Source: an uncultured Flavobacteriales bacterium
GTDB taxonomy: Bacteria > Bacteroidota > Bacteroidia > Flavobacteriales_G > Salibacteraceae
Assembly (NCBI GenBank): GCA_943788145.1
Contig: CALSPD010000022.1
Location: forward strand, 62,001 to 126,000
Length of the DNA stretch: 64,000 nt
Direction of reading: 5' to 3'
Positions 2,780-54,072 of the stretch are shown here, piece after piece (the stretch's first letter is position 1; each line of letters opens with the position of its first letter). A program made the translations under genes and the position numbers. The notes under the pieces were generated by a model. It made no database searches. It saw only the letters and a program-made list of their open reading frames with translations, and was not told the origin of the DNA.

Positions 2780-3404
2780 ATGAAATTCAATCTAATAACA
2801 ACCGCTTTCTTATTTTTAACTTCCATTGGATTTGGTCAAGAAGTCAATGTAGGAAGCGAGCCAAAAGCAACCTTTATCTTACAAATTGGCGATCAACAAT
2901 ACTTCTTATCGCAAGGTGAGGAAATGACCTTAGACCCTATTGACAAAGCAGCCAAGGTCTCCATCCGGTTAGGTGATTCGAAGCGTCTCGAAACCGGGGC
3001 AATGGCCTTTGATTACCCCAATGGCTATGGTTTTGAATTTGAAGAATCGGAAGGATACAAGAATTGGACGCTTGACGGTAACAACTTCGTTATCATGCTG
3101 TTTCAGTTCGATGCCAAAACGGAATTAGATGATTTCTTAGATTTAATGATCAGCCAATTTGGAAAGAAGAACACGTCAACATCCGCTACCTCAATGACTT
3201 TAGGCAATCGAAAGTTAGAGGGTAAAAGACTGGATGTGAGTTTAGTTGGACAAAGGATTTCCCTCGATTTTCTTGAAATAGTTCAGCCGGATGGAAAAAA
3301 CTCGATTTTTAGCTTTACAGGACACAAAAAATGAAGATGGTTCGGATTCTGCAGAAAGCCGCGATACAATCAAAATGATTGCCGGGTCCGTGAAGTACGA
3401 TTAG
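2780..3404 (+). CDS. Secreted hypothetical protein (frameshifted near the 3' end)
   Basis: The protein starts with a signal peptide (residues 1-19, cleaved near 'GFGQ') and is otherwise a soluble periplasmic or secreted protein of about 207 residues that I cannot assign. The frame from 2780 stops at 3334, but removing one T from the T-run at 3306-3310 lets it continue as 'LALQDTKNEDGSDSAESR' to a TAG at 3402-3404, a natural-looking acidic C-terminus. The stop then shares bases with the convergent ABC ATPase stop (TTAG, 3401-3404). The inserted T looks like a base-call error. Confidence 0.6.
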
Positions 3405-4137
3405 GGTTGATTTCGGTAGTAATGAACCGCATCTGAAGGAAGTCCGTCAAACACGATACATCCGTGATCCATTATCATTAGTCTTGACACAAAATGCTCG
3501 AGCATAGTTAAATTGTGACTTACAATAAGCACAGCAGCACCTTGTTGAGCAAGCTCCCGAATTTTTGATTTGCATTTCGATTGAAACTTATCATCGCCAA
3601 CAGCCAAAACTTCATCAATAATCAGTAATTCGACCTTTAAGTGCGCGGCAATTGCGAAGGCGAGTCGAACATACATACCTGATGAGTAGCGTTTAACGGG
3701 CACATCAATAAACTCATCTATTTCTGCGAAGGCAACGATGTCATCAAATCGATCTGCAACTTCCTCTCGCTTCAAACCGAGTAGCGAACCATTAAAAAAC
3801 ACGTTTTCTCTGCCTGTCAGCTCAGGGTGGAAACCTGTTCCAATTTCAAGAAGCGATGCGCACCTTCCCCATAATTTCTACTTCACCTGCACTTGGAAAG
3901 GTGATTTTTGAAAGCACCTTTAGCAGGGTAGATTTCCCTGCACCGTTTGCTCCTGTTATTCCAACTATATCGCCCTTGATTTATCGAAAACGTAATATCA
4001 TTCAGTGCCTGTAAATTCTCGATCTTCGTTTTCTTAAGTTTCAAGCGGTTGGAAATCGACTCTCGAAGCGTTGTGGCCGCGGTTTTATCGAGTCGGTATG
4101 ACTTTGATAAATGCCTTATATCAAGAACTTTACTCAT
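3401..4137 (-). CDS. Polysaccharide ABC exporter, ATP-binding subunit (Wzt type; two frameshifts)
   Basis: ATPase of an ABC-2 exporter for O-antigen, teichoic or capsular polysaccharide. After removing two single-base insertions (C-runs at 3973-3975 and 3867-3870 on the plus strand), one frame of about 245 residues contains Walker A GANGAGKST, 'ASLLEIGTGFHPELTGREN' (diagnostic of the Wzt/TagH group), signature YSSGM, Walker B 'LLIIDEVLAVGDD' and the switch 'VSHN'. It lacks the extra C-terminal glycan-binding domain of long Wzt proteins. Its start overlaps the permease stop by 4 bases, so the two are translationally coupled. The breaks resemble sequencing errors. Confidence 0.85.
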
Positions 4138-5038: not shown

Positions 5039-6930
5039 TCAAGCTCTGAACCAACGCAGCTCCTTCGCCTCTAACTCTTCCACTACCTGACCTATGCGTT
5101 CAGAAGCTTTCTGAAGCGCATCGAAGGAAACGTCTGCCGATTGTAAAATGAGTTCTAGCTTTACTTTTTCACTTTCTAGTGAAGGAATTTGTAGATCCAA
5201 TTGTTCCAATTCATACTTATCCTTAAAACTCAGTTTTTGTTTTGCTTTTTTAGATGCATCCGGGTTGCGAACCATACTATCCGAAGCCGTTGATTTGTCA
5301 GCGTTTCGTTTTTCGTCTTTTTTACCTTCATCCACACTTTCCTTGTACTCAGAATATGGTCCCCAAAAATCCTTCACCTGACCATCGCCCTCGAAAATGA
5401 ACAAGTGATCTACCAACTTATCTAAGAAATATCGATCGTGGGAAACAATGAGTAGGCATCCACCGAAATTTTCTAGAAATTCTTCCAGCTTCTGAAGGGT
5501 AAGCAAATCCAAATCGTTTGTCGGCTCATCCAAAATCAAAAAGTTTGGATTCTTAATTAAGACAGTCAATAAATGAAGCCTCCTGCGCTCTCCTCCACTC
5601 AGCTTGCTGACATAAGTATATTGCATCTCTGGTGGGAACATAAAGTGCAGTAAAAACTGTGAGGCCGTGAGTTTGCTTCCATCCGCAAGTTGGATAACCT
5701 CGGCAATATCCTTCAAAACCTCAATCACACGCTTATCTTCCTTCAACACCAAACCGGCTTGGTTGTAATAGCCATAAACGATAGTTTCGCCTACATTAAT
5801 TTTACCCCGAATCGGCTTCCTCATTGCCGGTTATTATGTTTAAAAGCGGTGCTCTTCCCTGCTCCATTCTTCCCCAAGATACCGATGCGTTCACCCCGTT
5901 TGAAGGTGTAATCAAATCCCTTGAGCAACACTTGATCACCATAACTTTTATAGACTTTTTTAAGCTCTAAAATCTTTCCTCCAATCCGGGTCATTTTTAC
6001 ATCAAGCTTCAATTCGGCCTGCTTTTTACCACTGCTCGCTTTGGCCTTTATATCATAGAACGCATCAATTCTTGACTTCGATTTCGTTGTTCGTGCCTTG
6101 GGCTGGCGCCTCATCCATTCCAGCTCCTTTTTCATCAGCTTGCCGGCCTTATCGATTTCCGTTTGGTAAACTTCCTCGCGTTGCGCTCTTTTTTCCAAAA
6201 AATAGGCGTAGTTACCCGCATGCCGGTAAAGCTTACCGTCATTCATTTCAATAATGCTTGTACAAACTCGATCTAAAAAATAACGATCGTGTGTCACCAT
6301 AAGCAAGGTTACGTTGGCCTGCATGAAGTATTGCTCTAACCATTCAATCATCTCGATATCCAAGTGATTGGTCGGTTCATCTAGAATCAAGAAGTCAGGC
6401 TGGTCCAGAATGGCGATGGCAATGGCCAATCGCTTGCGCTGTCCACCACTCAGCGTGGCAACGGTTTGATTCAAGTCATAAATACCGAAGCGTCCAAGCA
6501 TGACTTTTAACCTTCTATCGAAATCCCACGCTTGTCGAGATTCCATAGCAGCTGATGTCCGTTCCAATTCCGTCATCGGACTCTGGGCTGCCATCTTCAG
6601 ACTTTTTTAAAGCCTCGTTATAAACTCTAATTATCTCTAAAACCTCTGCGCTGGCCTCGTTAACAAAATCTTCAATTGATTGGGCAGGATTATCGGTCAG
6701 TAACAGGTTCTTGCTCAAGGAAAGAAACGCGAACGCCATCTCGAAAACTATATTCTCCAGCATCAGGAACATCCTTACCAGAAAGGATTCTCAGCAAGGT
6801 CGATTTTCCAGTTCCGTTATTGGCTATCAAGGCGACTTTCTCGCCCCGGCTCAGTCCAAAGCTAATATCTTCAAAAAGGGTTCGATCGCCATAGGTGTTT
6901 GGCCAATTTCTCAACGCTCAAGTAATTCAT
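5039..6930 (-). CDS. ABC-F family ATPase, Uup-like (at least five frameshifts)
   Basis: A cytoplasmic tandem-ABC protein without membrane segments, expected to act on the ribosome or, as for Uup, in DNA or ribosome maintenance. Fragments in several frames add up to about 625 residues, the normal Uup length. The first ABC module has NNGTGKST, LSGGQRKR and FLILDEPTNHLD. The second has KNGAGKST, LSGGERRR and FLILDEPTNDLD. A charged C-terminal coiled coil follows (about residues 530-620). Start is the ATG at 6930 ('MNYLSVEKLA'). Single-base insertions are inferred near 6900, 6695, 6586, 5848 and 5806; removing each restores the family sequence. No substituted motif residues are visible, so error is more likely than decay. 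Confidence 0.82.
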
Positions 6931-7026
6931 AGCTGCGAAGGTGAGCATTCAATATCCAATTTTATCTGTGGATGAAAAGAAGATTTATAACCTGAGGAAG
7001 ACAACTTTTAAGAAGGTTGTAAAGTC

Positions 7027-7614
7027 ATGCTAGTCGTGAAGCTTAAATCGATAGCATATTTCTTGTTCTTGAGCATCTTGACCGCTTTTATATCAAGTTG
7101 CAACACGTGCATTGGGGTCGATTGTCCGAATGAAAGCCAATGCGATGGCGGACAATGTGTTTGTTCAGACGGGGTTAACCGACTGACATGTAAGCTAGAT
7201 ACTTGTTTTCCGGGAGTGCCATGTGAACATGGAAATTGCGAATACGGGTTCTGCAATTGTGCGGAAAACTGGTCCGGAGCAGCTTGTGATTCACTTCTCT
7301 ATGAAGATCATGAAGGTGATTATTTCGGACCGTTTATTTGCAACAATTATCAAGAAGTTTCTATGGTTCAGGTCAGAAGGACTTCAGACCAACGCCAATT
7401 TAAAATCTTAGAACCAGCATATGATTATGCCTACCTGGCTGATTTTATTGATGCTAACCGATTCCAAGTCGCAAAACAAGTCAACCAAACCACAATGGGA
7501 CCGCTCTATATTCAAGGCTATGGAAGAATCGAAAAGGGAGTTATGCACTTAAACACTACCTATTCGAATGATTCAATAGCCGTTAATTGTGCATTCGAAG
7601 GCGAGCTGCAGTAG
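7027..7614 (+). CDS. EGF-like cysteine-rich lipoprotein
   Basis: A 195-residue protein with a signal peptide ending in a lipobox-like 'FISSC' (about residue 25). Residues 26-88 hold regularly spaced cysteines ('CVCSDG', 'CEHGNCEYGFCNCAENWSG.AC') with the spacing of EGF-like or tenascin-like modules. The rest is a beta-rich domain without a recognised family. It is probably an envelope lipoprotein. The stop lies 1 base from the stop of the convergent gene at 7616. Confidence 0.65.
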   Translation: MLVVKLKSIAYFLFLSILTAFISSCNTCIGVDCPNESQCDGGQCVCSDGVNRLTCKLDTCFPGVPCEHGNCEYGFCNCAENWSGAACDSLLYEDHEGDYFGPFICNNYQEVSMVQVRRTSDQRQFKILEPAYDYAYLADFIDANRFQVAKQVNQTTMGPLYIQGYGRIEKGVMHLNTTYSNDSIAVNCAFEGELQ

Positions 7615-38412: not shown

Positions 38413-39329
38413 ATGTGGGATTCATACACCAAAGGATTTAAGGGCCTATCTCAGGCTAGAGCGCACGCTAAGCGAAAATAGTGTTGATGCTTACCTTTCT
38501 GATGTTGAGAAGCTTGCCTCTTTTTTTCGAGTTTAAAGGTGAAAAGAAGACGCCTGAACATATTAATTATAAGGAACTTCAGGAGTTTACAAAATGGATT
38601 GTAGAGTTGGGACTAGCACCATACACTCAGGCTAGAATTATAAGCGGAATAAAGGCCTTTTACAATTATTTAGAACTGGGAGGAAATGATTTCGGACAAT
38701 CCAACAGCGCTGTTAGAAGCTCCAAAACTCGGCCGAAAACTACCTGAAACGCTAAAAAATCAAGAGATCGAAATAATGCTTAATGGAATCGATCGAAGTA
38801 AGCCGGAAGGTGAACGAAATAGAGCGATTATTGAAACCATGTACGCTTGCGGCCTTCGAGTTTCTGAATTGGTAAACCTGAAAATTTCCAATTTGTATTT
38901 GAACGAATCATTCATAAAGGTCGTTGGTAAGGGGAATAAGGAACGATTGATTCCAATTCATGATCAAGCTAATAAGCTGTATTGAACTTTACTTGAAATC
39001 TATTCGAAGTCACCTATCCATTAAGCCAGGGTAACGAAGATGTGGTCTTTTTGAACAGACGAGGCGCAAAGTTGAGTCGAGTCATGATCTTTTACATTAT
39101 TAAAGAATTGGCCGCTTCAGTAGGGATTCGGAAATCAATTAGCCCACACACACTGCGGCATAGTTTCGCCACGGAATTGGTAGAAAACGGTGCTGATTTA
39201 CGAGCCGTTCAAGAAATGTTAGGCCATGCATCGATAACCACAACTGAGATTTACACACACCTTGACCGGAAATTTCTGAAAGAAACCATCATGAAATTTC
39301 ATCCGCTTTACAACGGAAAATTTGAATAA
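38413..39329 (+). CDS. Tyrosine recombinase XerC/XerD (about five frameshifts)
   Basis: A site-specific recombinase of about 300 residues for chromosome dimer resolution. Pieces in three frames form one protein: N-terminal SAM-like domain ('[28 protein letters not shown]'), then catalytic residues Arg in 'CGLRVSEL', Lys in 'GKGNKER', His and Arg in 'HTLRHSFA', His in 'LGHASI' and Tyr in 'TEIYTHLD'. Insertions are inferred near 38442, 38520, 38690, 38973 and 39030. All catalytic residues survive, which favours sequencing error over decay. XerD is slightly favoured over XerC from its Bacteroidota synteny. Confidence 0.87.
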
Positions 39330-40205: not shown

Positions 40206-41210
40206 CTGATTCCCCCGCAAATTACCACAACGTAAATAGATTACATTCTGATATGGTTGATTCGTGCTTCTAAATAAACGAAAGCCCGATGAACATCTTA
40301 GAATTCACCAAACAATTTCCCACAGAAACAAGCTGTAAAGAACATTTTCGTGCTCAGCGCGAAACCGAAGGTGTTAAGTGTAAACACTGCTCGAGTGAGC
40401 GCCATTATTGGCTTCGGGCCAAATGGCAATGGCAGTGCATTGAATGTGGCTTCCGCACCACATTGAAAAGTGGTAGTATTATGGAAGGCTCGAAAGTCAG
40501 CGTGCGCACCTGGTATCTAGCCATGGCCTTTATGACCTTCAGTAAAAAGAGTATCTCAGCATCGGAATTACAACGTCAGTTAGATCATCCAAAATACGAT
40601 ACAGTATGGCGTCTGATGCATAAAATTCGCCATGCGATGGGAAAGCGCGATGCCCTCTACCAGTTGGATGGTGCAGTGGAATTTGATGAAGGTTACTTTG
40701 AAAAGGCCACTTCAAAACATGTGAAGATCAAGCGAGGAAGGGGAAGTCAACGACAGGCTCAGGTGGCCGTAATGGCAGAGTCTACCCCGTTGGAAGACAT
40801 AGAAACTGGTGTACGTTCGAGACAGTGCCGGTACTTCAAAATGAAGGTTATTGAAGACCACAACTCAGATACTCTCACTGAGTTGGTGAAAGAGAACTTT
40901 AATCAGAAAAACATCGTCTTCTCAGATAAAAGCACCAGTTATGTAGACATTGCAAAGCACGTGGAGATGCACATTACACAGAAATCGGATGCAAACACTA
41001 CCAAAACAACATTGCAATGGGTACATATTGCTATAAGCAACGCTAAACGCACTTTACTGGGTATATTCCACAAGATAAAAGGGAAGTACTTGCAAAACTA
41101 TCTAAATGAGTTTTGTTACAAACTCAACCGTAGACGTTTCGGTGAAAGGATTTTCGATAGACTTACTCTGGCGGTTGCTAAATCTTACTGGTAAGTTCTG
41201 GGGGAATCAG
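40206..41210 (+). mobile_element. Complete IS1595-family insertion sequence
   Basis: A 1005-bp element. The left end CTGATTCCCCCGCAAATTAC and the complement of the right end CTGATTCCCCCAGAACTTAC agree at 16-17 of 20 positions. It is flanked by an identical 8-bp duplication, ATTCAAAT, at 40198-40205 and 41211-41218, the size expected of IS1595 elements. One intact transposase gene lies inside. It landed in the repeat block after xerD and damaged no gene. Confidence 0.9.
40289..41194 (+). CDS. IS1595-family transposase
   Basis: A 301-residue DDE-type (ISXO2-like) transposase. The N-terminal zinc-ribbon has CKHC (about residues 31-34) and CIEC (about 50-53), preceding 'FRTTLKSGSIMEGSK'. The catalytic core begins 'VEFDEGYFEKA' and continues with 'VFSDKSTSYVDIAKHV'; the third acidic residue is probably in 'FCYKLNRRRFGERIFDRL' where the usual form is 'FxYRFNRR'. 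The frame is intact, so it may be active. Confidence 0.92.
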   Translation: MNILEFTKQFPTETSCKEHFRAQRETEGVKCKHCSSERHYWLRAKWQWQCIECGFRTTLKSGSIMEGSKVSVRTWYLAMAFMTFSKKSISASELQRQLDHPKYDTVWRLMHKIRHAMGKRDALYQLDGAVEFDEGYFEKATSKHVKIKRGRGSQRQAQVAVMAESTPLEDIETGVRSRQCRYFKMKVIEDHNSDTLTELVKENFNQKNIVFSDKSTSYVDIAKHVEMHITQKSDANTTKTTLQWVHIAISNAKRTLLGIFHKIKGKYLQNYLNEFCYKLNRRRFGERIFDRLTLAVAKSYW

Positions 41211-44008: not shown

Positions 44009-45475
44009 ATGCACAAACTGATCGTTACAAATCAACCAGAAATGATCCCGGAGAACATTCCAGGGGTTGAAATCATAAGTCCCCGCAAGTATTTCAGCAA
44101 CGAAATTTTTGCCACTCAGCGAAACACGCGGGTTTTTAACTTGTGCAGTGACTATCGATATCAATCGAAAGGATATTACGTCTCGTTATTGGCAGAAGCC
44201 CGCGGCCATAAGCCTATTCCAAACGTTAAGAATATTCAGGATTTAAAAACGACATCAATTATCCGCAGTATGACGGATGATTTGGATGAAATGCTTCAAA
44301 AAACCCTGAAACAAATCAAGTCCAGAGAATTTGTTCTTTCGGTCTATTTCGGGCAAAACATATCGAAGCAATACGACAAAATTTGTTTTGAACTGCACAA
44401 GCTTTTCCCCGTCCCGCTCTTTCGAGTCAAGTTTGTTTTCACGGATAAATGGGTCATCCAGGGAGTTCGAACCATAGGATTAAATGAAGTGCCTGCCCAT
44501 CATGTCGATTTTGTAAAAAGCGCAGCGGCACAATTCTTTGATAAAAAGCGCTATTCGGCAGCGAAGGAAGAGACATCTAAATATGATTTAGCCATACTTA
44601 TTCAACCCGAAGAGGTGGAAGCTCCATCGAATAAAAAGGCACTTCAAAAATTTAAAGAGGCTGCGGAGCGCGCTGGTTTTTTCGTAGAATTCATCACCAA
44701 GGATGACGCACCGCGAATTACGGAGTTTGACGCACTATTTATACGAACTACCACAAGTGTCAATCATTATACCTATCGAATGGCTAGAAAAGCCGAAAGT
44801 GAGGGCTTAGCAGTGATTGACGATCCATCATCCATTTTAAAATGTGCGAATAAGGTTTACCTGGCAGAGCTGTTGCGATTGGCTAAGATAAGCACGCCAA
44901 AAACGATGATTATACACAGTGATAACAGGAAAGAAGTTGCACAAAATTTAGGCTTGCCTTGTATTCTAAAACTACCCGATTCGAGTTTTTCTCAAGGTGT
45001 AATCAAGGTTTCCGATGAAGAAGAACTCAAAACAGAATTGAAAAAGATGTTGGATTTGAGCGATTTGGTTATTGGTCAAGCCTACACACCTACCGATTTT
45101 GATTGGCGAATTGGTGTTTTAGATGGTGAAGTCATTTTTGCCTGTAAATATTTTATGGCGAAGGGCCATTGGCAGATCTATAATTGGAAAAGCGATGATA
45201 AGGAAGAAATTGAAGGCAACTTCGAATCGGTTATGATCGATGAAGTCCCGAATTACATCATCGATGCTGCAGAAAAATCAACTCGATTAATTGGTAACGG
45301 ACTTTATGGTGTTGACGTTAAGGAATACAATGGAACAGCTATGGTTATTGAAATAAACGACAATCCGAATATTGATGCAGGTATTGAAGATTGTGTTTTA
45401 GGTGATGCGTTGTATTCAAAAGTGATTGACGCTTTGACTAAGAAAATTCACGTAAGATTGGGAATTGCCCATTAA
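44009..45475 (+). CDS. RimK-like ATP-grasp ligase with RLAN domain
   Basis: A 488-residue protein with an N-terminal RLAN (RimK-like ATP-grasp N-terminal) domain, about residues 1-190 ('RVFNLCSDYRYQSKGYYVSLLAEARGHKPIP'), and a C-terminal ATP-grasp domain ('DDPSSILKCANKVYLAELLRLAKISTPKT', 'DWRIGVLDGEVIFACKYFMAKGHW', 'VDVKEYNGTAMVIEINDNPNID'). It should form amide or peptide bonds using ATP, activating a carboxylate as an acyl phosphate. It is the first gene of a three-gene operon; the next start is 10 bases past its stop. Confidence 0.9.
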   Translation: MHKLIVTNQPEMIPENIPGVEIISPRKYFSNEIFATQRNTRVFNLCSDYRYQSKGYYVSLLAEARGHKPIPNVKNIQDLKTTSIIRSMTDDLDEMLQKTLKQIKSREFVLSVYFGQNISKQYDKICFELHKLFPVPLFRVKFVFTDKWVIQGVRTIGLNEVPAHHVDFVKSAAAQFFDKKRYSAAKEETSKYDLAILIQPEEVEAPSNKKALQKFKEAAERAGFFVEFITKDDAPRITEFDALFIRTTTSVNHYTYRMARKAESEGLAVIDDPSSILKCANKVYLAELLRLAKISTPKTMIIHSDNRKEVAQNLGLPCILKLPDSSFSQGVIKVSDEEELKTELKKMLDLSDLVIGQAYTPTDFDWRIGVLDGEVIFACKYFMAKGHWQIYNWKSDDKEEIEGNFESVMIDEVPNYIIDAAEKSTRLIGNGLYGVDVKEYNGTAMVIEINDNPNIDAGIEDCVLGDALYSKVIDALTKKIHVRLGIAH

Positions 45476-45485
45476 TCAAATAGCT

Positions 45486-46709
45486 ATGCGAACATTTCAT
45501 TTGTTTGAAGTATTTGGGGTTGAACTTGAATACATGGTGGTCGATAAGGACACGCTAAAGGTCAGGCCGATTGTTGACCTCATTATTAAGGAAATGACAG
45601 GCGAATTCACGAGTGATGTTGAACGAGGAGACATCGCTTGGAGCAATGAACTGGTCGCACATGTACTAGAATTAAAAACGAATGGACCTTCACCTTCGCT
45701 CAAAGGATTAGAAAGTCGCTTTCATGAGGAAGTTGTTTTTCTTAATCGGCTTTTGGAAAAACACAATTGTATGTTATTGCCAACGGGTGCTCACCCTTTC
45801 TTTCATCCGAATCAATCCGTGATATGGCCGCATGAGTATAATGAGGTTTACGCTCTTTATGATCGCATTTTTGGTTGCAAGGGTCATGGCTGGAGTAATT
45901 TGCAAAGCACACACCTAAACCTACCTTTTGCCAATGACGCAGAATTCGCACTTCTCCACGCTGCAATTCGGGTCATTTTACCAATTATCCCAGCTTTAGC
46001 TGCTTCTACTCCTATTATTGAGTCCAAAATCACCGGTACAATCGACACTCGATTGGCATATTACAGTAAAAACCAGCACAAGATTCCAGAAATTGCGGGA
46101 GCCATAATTCCAGAAGCGGCCTTTTCGAAGGCTGAGTATGAACGTCTAATTTTCAATCCAATTGCCAACGCTATTGCCCCCTACGACACCGAAAAAGTAT
46201 TGGACAAGCATTTTCTAAATTCACGTGGAGCCATCGCTCGATTTGACCGAGGAGCAATTGAAATTCGATTGATCGATATTCAAGAATGTCCTAAGGCGGA
46301 TTTAGGCATTGTAGAGTTAGTCGTTTTAGCAGTGAAGTGGTTAATAAGCAAGCATGAACATAATTTTTCAGCATTGGCCGAGTCGTGCTCAACTTTAGAG
46401 CTTGCCGGAATGTTGCATGAAATAATCCAAAATGGTTCTCGACAACCCGTTTCAAACGCGGCTTATTTAAGTCTGTTTGACCTAAAAACTCCGCAAACAG
46501 CCATAAATATTTGGGGAAGTATTTTCAAAAGCATTGAAACTGAATTGTCAGACTCGGCTAAGAAAGTTTGTGTCGACATTCTTAAACATGGAAATTTAAG
46601 CGAGCGACTGCTGAAGCGAATACACAATGACAGCGCAGAAGCTGATATTAAGGATGTTTATATTGAGCTCGCTGCCTGTCTAGCTGAGAATAGAATGTTC
46701 CAAGCGTGA
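45486..46709 (+). CDS. GCS2-family carboxylate-amine ligase
   Basis: A 407-residue member of the glutamate-cysteine ligase family 2 (YbdK-like). 'FGVELEYMVVD' carries the metal-binding Glu residues; 'HVLELKTNGPSPSL', 'LLPTGAHPFF', 'STHLNLPF' and 'GAIEIRLIDIQECP' are core blocks. It ligates an amine to a gamma-carboxylate with ATP. With the RimK-like and FGase genes it probably makes a glutamyl or amide-linked small molecule; glutathione itself is unlikely since no GshB partner is seen. ATG 45486 preferred. Its stop overlaps the next start (GTGA). Confidence 0.88.
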   Translation: MRTFHLFEVFGVELEYMVVDKDTLKVRPIVDLIIKEMTGEFTSDVERGDIAWSNELVAHVLELKTNGPSPSLKGLESRFHEEVVFLNRLLEKHNCMLLPTGAHPFFHPNQSVIWPHEYNEVYALYDRIFGCKGHGWSNLQSTHLNLPFANDAEFALLHAAIRVILPIIPALAASTPIIESKITGTIDTRLAYYSKNQHKIPEIAGAIIPEAAFSKAEYERLIFNPIANAIAPYDTEKVLDKHFLNSRGAIARFDRGAIEIRLIDIQECPKADLGIVELVVLAVKWLISKHEHNFSALAESCSTLELAGMLHEIIQNGSRQPVSNAAYLSLFDLKTPQTAINIWGSIFKSIETELSDSAKKVCVDILKHGNLSERLLKRIHNDSAEADIKDVYIELAACLAENRMFQA

Positions 46710-47371
46710 ATTGGCTTTTGACATGCGAACATTACGCTAATACTGTTCCGCTGCAATACCAGTCGTTGTTCAATAATGCGAAAGATGTATTGGATAGTCA
46801 TCGAGGATATGATAAGTACATAGCCCCACTTTACGAATCACTCAAAGATCGGTTTGATGCGAGTTTTCACTATCCATATACACGGTTATTAATCGAACCA
46901 AATCGATCGTTGCATCATCGCCATTTATTCTCTCCTTTTTCAATCCAACTTTCAAAGAATGAAAGAATGGATTTGATTACCGATTATTATCAACCCTATC
47001 GTAATCAAGTGATTGAGCAAATAAAACAATTCAATCAAGATCAAACTATTCACATAAGCGTTCATAGCTTTACAGCTAGCCTTGGCAATCAGAATCGCAC
47101 GGCCCCCATTGGATTGTTGTTCGATTCAAGGAAAAAACCCGAACGGGCCATAGCGGATATTTGGAAGCAATTAATTCGCAAAGAGTCGGATGCTCAGGTG
47201 AGATTTAATTATCCATATCGGGGTGCTGCCGATGGATTCACCACCTTTTTACGCAAGGAATTCAAAGAGCATTATCTCGGATTTGAATTGGAGGTCAGGA
47301 ATGATTGTGTCGCAACGCTTTCTGAACAAATCATTTCCAGCATCACTGAACTACGCCTGACTTTAAGCTAG
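46706..47371 (+). CDS. N-formylglutamate amidohydrolase-family protein
   Basis: A 221-residue FGase-fold zinc-dependent amidohydrolase. 'LLTCEHYAN' gives the metal-binding Glu and His; 'LDSHRGYD', 'EPNRSLHHRHLF', 'IHISVHSFTASL' and 'LGFELEVRND' are further family motifs. Starts with GTG inside the GCS2 stop, so translation is coupled. Histidine-degradation genes are absent, so its substrate is likelier the product or intermediate of the two ligases upstream. Its TAG overlaps the opposite-strand TAG at 47368 (CTAG). Confidence 0.88.
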   Translation: MNWLLTCEHYANTVPLQYQSLFNNAKDVLDSHRGYDKYIAPLYESLKDRFDASFHYPYTRLLIEPNRSLHHRHLFSPFSIQLSKNERMDLITDYYQPYRNQVIEQIKQFNQDQTIHISVHSFTASLGNQNRTAPIGLLFDSRKKPERAIADIWKQLIRKESDAQVRFNYPYRGAADGFTTFLRKEFKEHYLGFELEVRNDCVATLSEQIISSITELRLTLS

Positions 47372-48528: not shown

Positions 48529-49041
48529 ATGAATCGAATTTTACCTGTAATCGTTTTGTTTCTGATCATAGCATTGACCGGAACGGCCAAACAGTCTGCC
48601 TACCATTTAAACCAGACTAAAATCGATTATGTATTTGACCAATCCATTGATTTAGGATCGTCCCTCATGGATCTAAGTACAAATACATCTGCCGATGAAA
48701 CCGAGGGAATGAATAACACAACGGCCGCCATTATTGCCTTTGGCACAGTGGTAGTTCCTTATTTTATTTATGGAGGATGGTGGATTTTCACCGCCATTAC
48801 GGGAGGTATTGGTATAATTTTTCTACCGATCGCCATTGTATTTGCCGGAGCTGCAAGCTTACCCTGGCATCGGTACTTCTTGGGCACGAATAATGAAACA
48901 GCCAAAATTATGGCACTCTATTGCGTGACCTTCAATTGGTTTGGCTGGCTACCCATAGCAGATGGGGTCTTCTTGTTATTGGATGAAGAAGACAGTTATA
49001 AGAATAATCCAAATTACATTATGTGGATTGATCAAATCTGA
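48529..49041 (+). CDS. TM2-like small membrane protein, paralogue 1
   Basis: A 170-residue protein with a signal peptide ('LPVIVLFLIIALTGTAK'), then a periplasmic stretch 'YHLNQTKIDYVFDQSIDLG', a hydrophobic hairpin and a TM2-like C-terminus ('PWHRYFLGTNNETAKIMALYCVTFNWFGWLPIADGVFLLLDEED'). Two paralogues sit at 49152 and 53677 with the same layout. An N-terminal signal peptide plus a TM2-like tail suggests an envelope protein. Function unknown. Confidence 0.75.
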   Translation: MNRILPVIVLFLIIALTGTAKQSAYHLNQTKIDYVFDQSIDLGSSLMDLSTNTSADETEGMNNTTAAIIAFGTVVVPYFIYGGWWIFTAITGGIGIIFLPIAIVFAGAASLPWHRYFLGTNNETAKIMALYCVTFNWFGWLPIADGVFLLLDEEDSYKNNPNYIMWIDQI

Positions 49042-49151
49042 TTGTTTTTATGGTGTATTCTGAATTACAAAAGATTTTTTCCATTAAAGATTATATTCGA
49101 ATCATTCAGTATTATTGGGTCATCAAAAATCAATTTAAAACAACGCTACTT

Positions 49152-49586
49152 ATGAAAAAATTCACCCTAGTTTTCGCCATTATTCTTGGCTTCGCTGTAG
49201 GTGCTAATGCATCTTCGTTCAAATTAAATCAAGATAAATTTGAAGCCGCTTTTGAGCAAAGCGAAGATTTGACCAATCAACTTTTCGTTTCTTCAGGAAG
49301 TGCTCTCGCAGAAACATTTGCTAGCTCAGCATCTGAAGACAGTATGGATAAGCAAACTTTGGCTGCAATTATTTGTGTAGTTGAGTACTTTACTGGTGTT
49401 GGAATTTTAATTCCAATTCATAGAATTATCCTAGGTTGCGATGGTCAAACAGTAAAAGTCGTAGCACTTTATTGCATCACCCTTGGAGGTCTAGGTTGGT
49501 TACCATTGATTGATGCTATCTTTCTATTCATGGACGACACAAAGAGCAAGTATATTGAGAACGGTAAGTTCCTTATGTTTCTTTAG
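49152..49586 (+). CDS. TM2-like small membrane protein, paralogue 2
   Basis: About 144 residues from the ATG at 49152. It has a signal peptide ('FAIILGFAVGANA'), the shared motif 'FKLNQDKFEAAFEQSEDLT', a linker, and a TM2-like tail ('IPIHRIILGCDGQTVKVVALYCITLGGLGWLPLIDAIFLFMDD'). It is 110 bases after paralogue 1 and ends in a strong terminator. Tandem duplication is likely. A longer frame from 49050 lacks homology. Confidence 0.78.
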   Translation: MKKFTLVFAIILGFAVGANASSFKLNQDKFEAAFEQSEDLTNQLFVSSGSALAETFASSASEDSMDKQTLAAIICVVEYFTGVGILIPIHRIILGCDGQTVKVVALYCITLGGLGWLPLIDAIFLFMDDTKSKYIENGKFLMFL

Positions 49587-53676: not shown

Positions 53677-54072
53677 TTAGTTGTTCCAAGCAAAGAACTT
53701 TGGATTGTCCTTGTACTTCATCCAGAACTCATCACCTTTAATGATTGTTCCCCAGAAATCAACCATAATGGCAACATAATTTGCAACCGGAATACATAGA
53801 TAGTAGATCAATAAGCTCTTACCACCAGTTCCCATGTAGCTTCTGTGAAGTGCAATAGCACCACAGAAAATAGCACGAATTAAGAATTGAGTTTTGCTTA
53901 GTTCAGCATCAGCCAAATTAGCGAAAGTAGCTTGCTCAGAAGCGATGTAAGTTACGTCTTCAGAAGCGTCAAAAGCAGACTCGATAGCTGCATCATTTAA
54001 TTTGTAGCCATCTGCAAAAGATGCTCCAGCCACTCCCAATACTAGGGCACATGCTAAGAATAGTTTTTTCAT
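53677..54072 (-). CDS. TM2-like small membrane protein, paralogue 3
   Basis: A 131-residue protein with a signal peptide ('LACALVLGVAGASFA'), the shared motif 'YKLNDAAIESAFDASEDVT' and a C-terminal TM2-like part ('IALHRSYMGTGGKSLLIYYLCIPVANYVAIMVDFWGTI'). It shares its layout with paralogues at 48529 and 49152 but sits on the opposite strand after the LolA/YidD run. A TAGATTTG box lies 29-36 bases upstream of the start. Confidence 0.8.
   Translation of the reverse strand: MKKLFLACALVLGVAGASFADGYKLNDAAIESAFDASEDVTYIASEQATFANLADAELSKTQFLIRAIFCGAIALHRSYMGTGGKSLLIYYLCIPVANYVAIMVDFWGTIIKGDEFWMKYKDNPKFFAWNN

Follow-up and report, generated by a model that had tools for sequence, protein, structure and literature searches.

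A conserved, biochemically orphan operon of an RLAN-RimK ligase and a GCS2-fold ligase, with an FGase-family hydrolase, in a Salibacteraceae genome

A 64,000-nucleotide stretch of DNA from an uncultured Flavobacteriales bacterium of the Salibacteraceae (assembly GCA_943788145.1, contig CALSPD010000022.1, positions 62,001 to 126,000; hereafter the window) carries three adjacent genes, which encode an ATP-grasp ligase with an RLAN domain (RLAN-RimK), a carboxylate-amine ligase of the GCS2 fold, and a hydrolase of the N-formylglutamate amidohydrolase-like family (FGase). They form a real, conserved and biochemically orphan operon of a kind that had already been predicted: Iyer et al. 2009 reportedly described RLAN-RimK/GCS2/FGase neighborhoods, with an amino-acid-derived product according to the first-pass annotation of the window. 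The firm core of the operon is the pair of ligases, not the trio.

All three assignments are supported by Pfam scores above the respective cut-offs. In RLAN-RimK, RLAN (PF14401) scores 161 bits against a cut-off of 25 and RimK (PF08443) 33.7 against 21; the window's GCS2 (PF04107) scores 69.6 against 21, and its FGase (PF05013) 69.2 against 28.9. Together with the gene coordinates (Table 1), these scores confirm the arrangement described in the first-pass annotation, in which 10 bases separate RLAN-RimK from GCS2 and the GCS2 stop overlaps the FGase start in the sequence GTGA. A longer GCS2 open reading frame (ORF), with a TTG start at 45465, finds no support in the N-termini of homologs.

Table 1. 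Genes of the operon, in window coordinates.
Feature	Position	Strand	Details
RLAN domain and RimK-like ATP-grasp ligase	44009..45475	+	ATG start, 488 amino acids
GCS2-fold carboxylate-amine ligase	45486..46709	+	407 amino acids, ATG 45486 to TGA 46709
FGase-family (N-formylglutamate amidohydrolase-like) hydrolase	46706..47371	+	221 amino acids, GTG start

Screening GTDB genomes for the ligase turned up 167 relatives, of which the best 80 were kept. Downstream of the ligase, GCS2 is present in 79 of these 80 and FGase in 75; of the five without FGase, three lie at contig ends (L007, L026, L053), one lacks FGase (L070), and one lacks both FGase and GCS2 (L086). The 80 belong to Bacteroidota, Ignavibacteriota, Fibrobacterota and Omnitrophota, plus one gammaproteobacterial metagenome-assembled genome (MAG), and 66 bear flavobacterial names, by a count of titles. 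In a wider set, GCS2 is on the ligase strand at 106 of 106 loci and no more than 25 nt from the ligase at 101 of them, and FGase is within 25 nt of GCS2 at 91 of 96; the GCS2 figures take in only genes up to 200 nt from the ligase and so leave out L127, where the gap is 255 nt. The two-ligase cassette itself occurs in Bacteroidota, Ignavibacteriota, Fibrobacterota, Omnitrophota and a Legionella record. The adjacency of RLAN-RimK, GCS2 and FGase is not chance, and the orphan amide-forming pathway claimed from the window, with two ATP-dependent folds and an amidohydrolase, is borne out as a conserved operon whose orthologs are found together and not always separate. That three unrelated housekeeping enzymes, for example an FGase of histidine degradation, merely happen to be adjacent is highly improbable: of the 18 Bacteroidota genomes that gave a strong match, 2 do have FGase in the absence of both RLAN and GCS2, but the adjacency is kept across several phyla, the conserved order contradicts such an origin, and FGase matched no NCBIfam model (whether a dedicated histidine-degradation deformylase model exists there was not checked).

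Closer to the window, matches to the RLAN family occur in 6 of 42 genomes of its order and 5 of 13 of its genus, counting a remnant in a congeneric genome (L155, G028:C7:72000-85000). There, fragments of RLAN and FGase survive at about 6038-6612, and nothing matches GCS2; they lie downstream of a TMTC-like gene, as the window operon does. The operon is therefore patchy and able to decay; the remnant was otherwise excluded from all counts.

In the window's ligase, RLAN is N-terminal to the RimK ATP-grasp domain. Residues E448, N450, D451, N452, P453 and H387-I390 are each conserved in 97% or more of the 178 proteins aligned, the window's included, and presumably have the catalytic role of their counterparts in ATP-grasp enzymes. 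The extra RLAN domain sets the protein apart from RimK, LysX and ArgX, and its score against the RimK family model is 69.8 bits, below the cut-off of 143.4; the structure comparison of the ligase covered residues 189-488. At one locus (L149), RLAN and the ATP-grasp half are encoded on separate overlapping ORFs (5186-6082 and 6066-6689), which suggests that RLAN may be a separable module.

The window's GCS2 falls in a subfamily of its own. It scores 45.4 bits against the YbdK family carboxylate-amine ligase model (TIGR02050; curated cut-off 176.4) and far under the cut-offs of the glutamate-cysteine ligase models that match it, and the GCS2 model is closer to YbdK and plant glutamate-cysteine ligase than to PafA. 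Our surveys comprised draws of 299 Pseudomonadota and 296 Bacteroidota genomes, the latter including the window's own; alignment A1 comprised 18 sequences, including those of the window and of at least two surveyed genomes (L023, which is also L120, and L070, which is also L136), so that those matches arise by construction. In the Bacteroidota, the genomes in which a search with a GCS2 alignment reached E values below 1e-80 were precisely the 24 of the GCS2 type, that of the window included, and all other matches were weak (1.1e-6 or worse); the 299 Pseudomonadota gave no strong match (best 4.7e-8). Across the 595 genomes searched, strong members of this GCS2 subfamily are seen only beside RLAN-RimK.

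The GCS2 scores also bear on the proposal that the operon makes a glutathione-like thiol, in which GCS2 would form gamma-glutamylcysteine and the ATP-grasp enzyme would add a third residue. The pair has the right shapes for this, as glutamate-cysteine ligases share the fold of the GCS2 model and GshB is an ATP-grasp enzyme. Against it stand the distance of the window's GCS2 from the glutamate-cysteine ligase models and the occurrence of the same ligase elsewhere with a GNAT and no adjacent GCS2. Moreover, the window's genome (G000, 86.6% complete) has one GCS2 match in all, no match to GSH-S_ATP (PF02955), and BshC of bacillithiol synthesis. Glutathione is disfavored on these genomic grounds, in agreement with the earlier remark that no glutathione genes are nearby, and we consider a thiol product quite improbable.

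A further pattern, which offers a hint at function, concerns the partner of the ligase. RLAN was found in 35 of the 296 Bacteroidota and 56 of the 299 Pseudomonadota genomes; among 59 places in Pseudomonadota, stretches were retrieved for 58, and the one left is L086 itself. In total, 181 loci represent 179 distinct ligases (two are same-genome duplicates), of which 106 have GCS2 as a partner, 69 a RimI-like GNAT acetyltransferase, none both, and four neither. A partner was counted within 2200 bases, and GCS2 within 200 nt; two loci, one with broken reading frames (L116) and one with a 255-base gap (L127), were restored by hand as GCS2. The GNAT may be a gene of its own, part of a fusion with the ligase (11 loci) or part of a fusion with DUF3335, and this GNAT-type sister form is common in Pseudomonadota. 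At the thresholds used, no residue sets GCS2-type apart from GNAT-type ligases except the start methionine, a difference due to trimming.

To place these partners on a phylogeny, 177 ligase proteins were reduced to 78 (one row per group of more than 80% identity) and joined by the window, whose row was taken from L150; L116, L136 (a duplicate) and L149 (the split ligase) were omitted. In the resulting tree of 79 rows, the GCS2 rows fall within a single starred clade of 41, which they share with seven GNAT-fused rows and L086. A first reading of the tree as at least two partner switches gains no support from approximately unbiased (AU) tests: GCS2 rows as a single clade are not rejected either against all others (p-AU 0.0935) or against GNAT rows only (p-AU 0.393).

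A hydrolase accompanies nearly every GCS2-type ligase. A papain-like C39 gene (PF13529), FGase, or both are near 103 of 106 distinct GCS2-type ligases, the other three being cut off at contig ends. In the Bacteroidota survey, C39 lies directly upstream in 21 of 24 GCS2-type loci, and FGase is present in 16 of the 24. The motifs CEH, H[ST]FT and DG...LR of FGase are conserved and are also present in structure 2odf. The C39 protein was found in 3 of 12 genomes in one search, with eight flavobacterial genomes all lacking a match, and in 4 of 10 genomes in another. The window's genome, at its 86.6% completeness, also has no C39 match, which is why this gene was invisible in the first-pass annotation. 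An hhalign comparison shows DUF3335 to be homologous to the C39 found in GCS2-type loci (probability 97.5, E 5.6e-12); the residues Q, C, H and D are conserved. At two Bacteroidota loci (L265, L266), members of the FGase subfamily occur near an aminotransferase-like gene, and the fetched stretch contains no match to RLAN, GCS2 or C39.

Tentatively, we favor the reading that a small amide compound with a cap, either an amino-acid derivative or a short peptide, is both produced and recycled by the operon. On the model of RimK, LysX and ArgX, RLAN-RimK would use ATP to join a carboxylate to an amino acid through a single amide bond. GCS2 would carry out an ATP-dependent acylation of a free amine, the acyl donor most likely being a gamma-glutamyl or similar carboxylate, and this step would be the counterpart of the one catalyzed by the acetyl-CoA-using RimI-like GNAT in the sister systems. 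FGase, together with C39 in most Bacteroidota relatives, would hydrolyze an amide, thereby removing the cap or trimming the product. The data establish the genes, their folds and conserved sites, the operon, the alternation of partners and the recurrent hydrolase; what the enzymes do and in which order, the correspondence of GCS2 with GNAT, the identity of the substrates and the small-molecule nature of the product are our inference. A more specific version, which is possible but rather doubtful, holds that GCS2 is an ATP-dependent amine capper that has replaced the acetyl-CoA-dependent RimI-like GNAT beside one conserved RLAN-RimK ligase. The two forms would then yield acyl and acetyl versions of a single unrecognized family, either of peptides bearing a cap or of peptide modifications, and FGase would take the cap off.

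Several observations weigh against the favored reading: (i) FGase is missing from 8 of the 24 surveyed Bacteroidota GCS2-type loci and is therefore dispensable to the set, and it stands without either ligase in the two genomes noted above. Of the trio first put forward as a unit, the two ligases hold together and FGase does not. (ii) Three GNAT-type Pseudomonadota (G365, G384, G412) have a weak GCS2 match away from the ligase. (iii) Separate GNATs are on the ligase strand in only 37 of 58 cases, a looser link than that of GCS2. (iv) Two ligases have neither partner in the stretch fetched (L156, L199); a contig end truncates another that was counted as neither (L228). The fourth, L086 of the gammaproteobacterial MAG (ligase at 6001-7458), has no GCS2 near, and a GNAT of the sister-type family (3220-3657, E 1.7e-51) lies 2.3 kb upstream, beyond the counting distance, so the locus was kept as neither. 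(v) When the rows with neither partner are left out of the tree, two changes suffice. At the level of the locus the alternation is strict; it may nonetheless stem from a single evolutionary switch, and the 179 loci therefore amount to far fewer independent observations. (vi) The name of the RimI-like GNAT model refers to ribosomal-protein acetylation and suits a protein target equally well.

This last point leads to the alternative that the operon modifies the ends of peptides or proteins, with RLAN-RimK extending a C-terminus as RimK does on S6, GCS2 or GNAT modifying an amine of that target, and the modification being reversed or trimmed by C39 or FGase. We regard this as unlikely. The GCS2 model is nearer to YbdK and plant glutamate-cysteine ligase than to PafA, and when small ORFs in the 600-base flanks of 107 GCS2-type loci are grouped, the most widespread family reaches only 19 loci, a result that bears on a local target only, such as a graspetide-like precursor of a ribosomally synthesized and post-translationally modified peptide encoded near the locus. 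Eight listed small-ORF families resemble, by eye, pieces of flavobacterial neighbor genes.

A capped dipeptide of the N-acetylglutaminylglutamine amide (NAGGN) type, acting as a compatible solute under salt stress, appears improbable. Many of the named relatives belong to genera of marine habitat, but this bias may stem from the query's own kin. The fusion of GNAT to RLAN-RimK noted above is consistent with such a solute, but the N-acetylglutaminylglutamine synthetase model (TIGR03103) is not among the 17 models that match the window's ligase. As described in PMC8070244, the NAGGN pathway combines acetylation and ligation, and its operon consists of an acetyltransferase-ligase, an asparagine synthase and a predicted aminopeptidase. 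It thus resembles the GNAT-type sister systems in uniting acetylation, ligation and a peptidase in one operon. It differs in its added asparagine-synthase gene, and no asparagine-synthase-like gene was recognized by eye in 40 neighbor families, for which no profile test was made.

Other known systems resemble the operon in part. The amine of glutamate can be protected either by GNAT acetylation or by RimK-like ligation, according to PMC4490483. The RimABK and Rlo systems of Pseudomonas, as described in PMC12239564, likewise pair a RimK-like or ATP-grasp protein with a protease, but that protease is retropepsin-like where the operon has C39 or FGase; the terms glutamate-cysteine and formylglutamate are absent from the main text of that paper. 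In a passage of PMC4431377, the authors discuss linked ATP-grasp, COOH-NH2 and GNAT ligases and capping by GNAT, citing Iyer et al. 2009. The C39 link and the GCS2-or-GNAT alternation may already be contained in that 2009 work. No paper on this operon is among the matches listed in the literature searched, which omits most subscription journals, and the papers searched name no product, in keeping with the claim that it is not known.

The TMTC/TPR gene just upstream, which the first-pass annotation had mentioned, is not a conserved partner; its cluster occurs at 3 of 86 loci (G000, G024 and the decayed locus of G028). Two recurrent neighbors named by eye, a lipoprotein resembling M14 carboxypeptidases (34 of 86 loci) and a gene resembling pyrE (29 of 86), are confined to L019-L081, where flavobacterial names prevail, and both are therefore taken as family-level synteny. 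A GNAT-nitrilase fusion is encoded at 13 loci and lies just upstream of the operon at L021, L022, L026, L032, L043, L045, L056, L062, L071 and L080. PADLOC matched none of the three operon proteins nor C39, so a defense system was rejected. Elsewhere in the window, a XerD-like recombinase, named by eye, is split across two ORFs in different frames (38686-39329), with an IS1595-type transposase nearby (40289-41194), and three small proteins that are alike by eye, with a signal-like start and a similar tail, are encoded at 48529-49586 and 53677-54072, two of them in tandem.

With its alternative partners, GCS2 or GNAT, and its link to C39, the operon lends itself better to testing than the trio alone. 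With GCS2 and GNAT found beside the same ligase, an open prediction becomes a comparison: if a capped product is indeed made, the products of the two forms would differ by one acyl cap, a difference visible to mass spectrometry.
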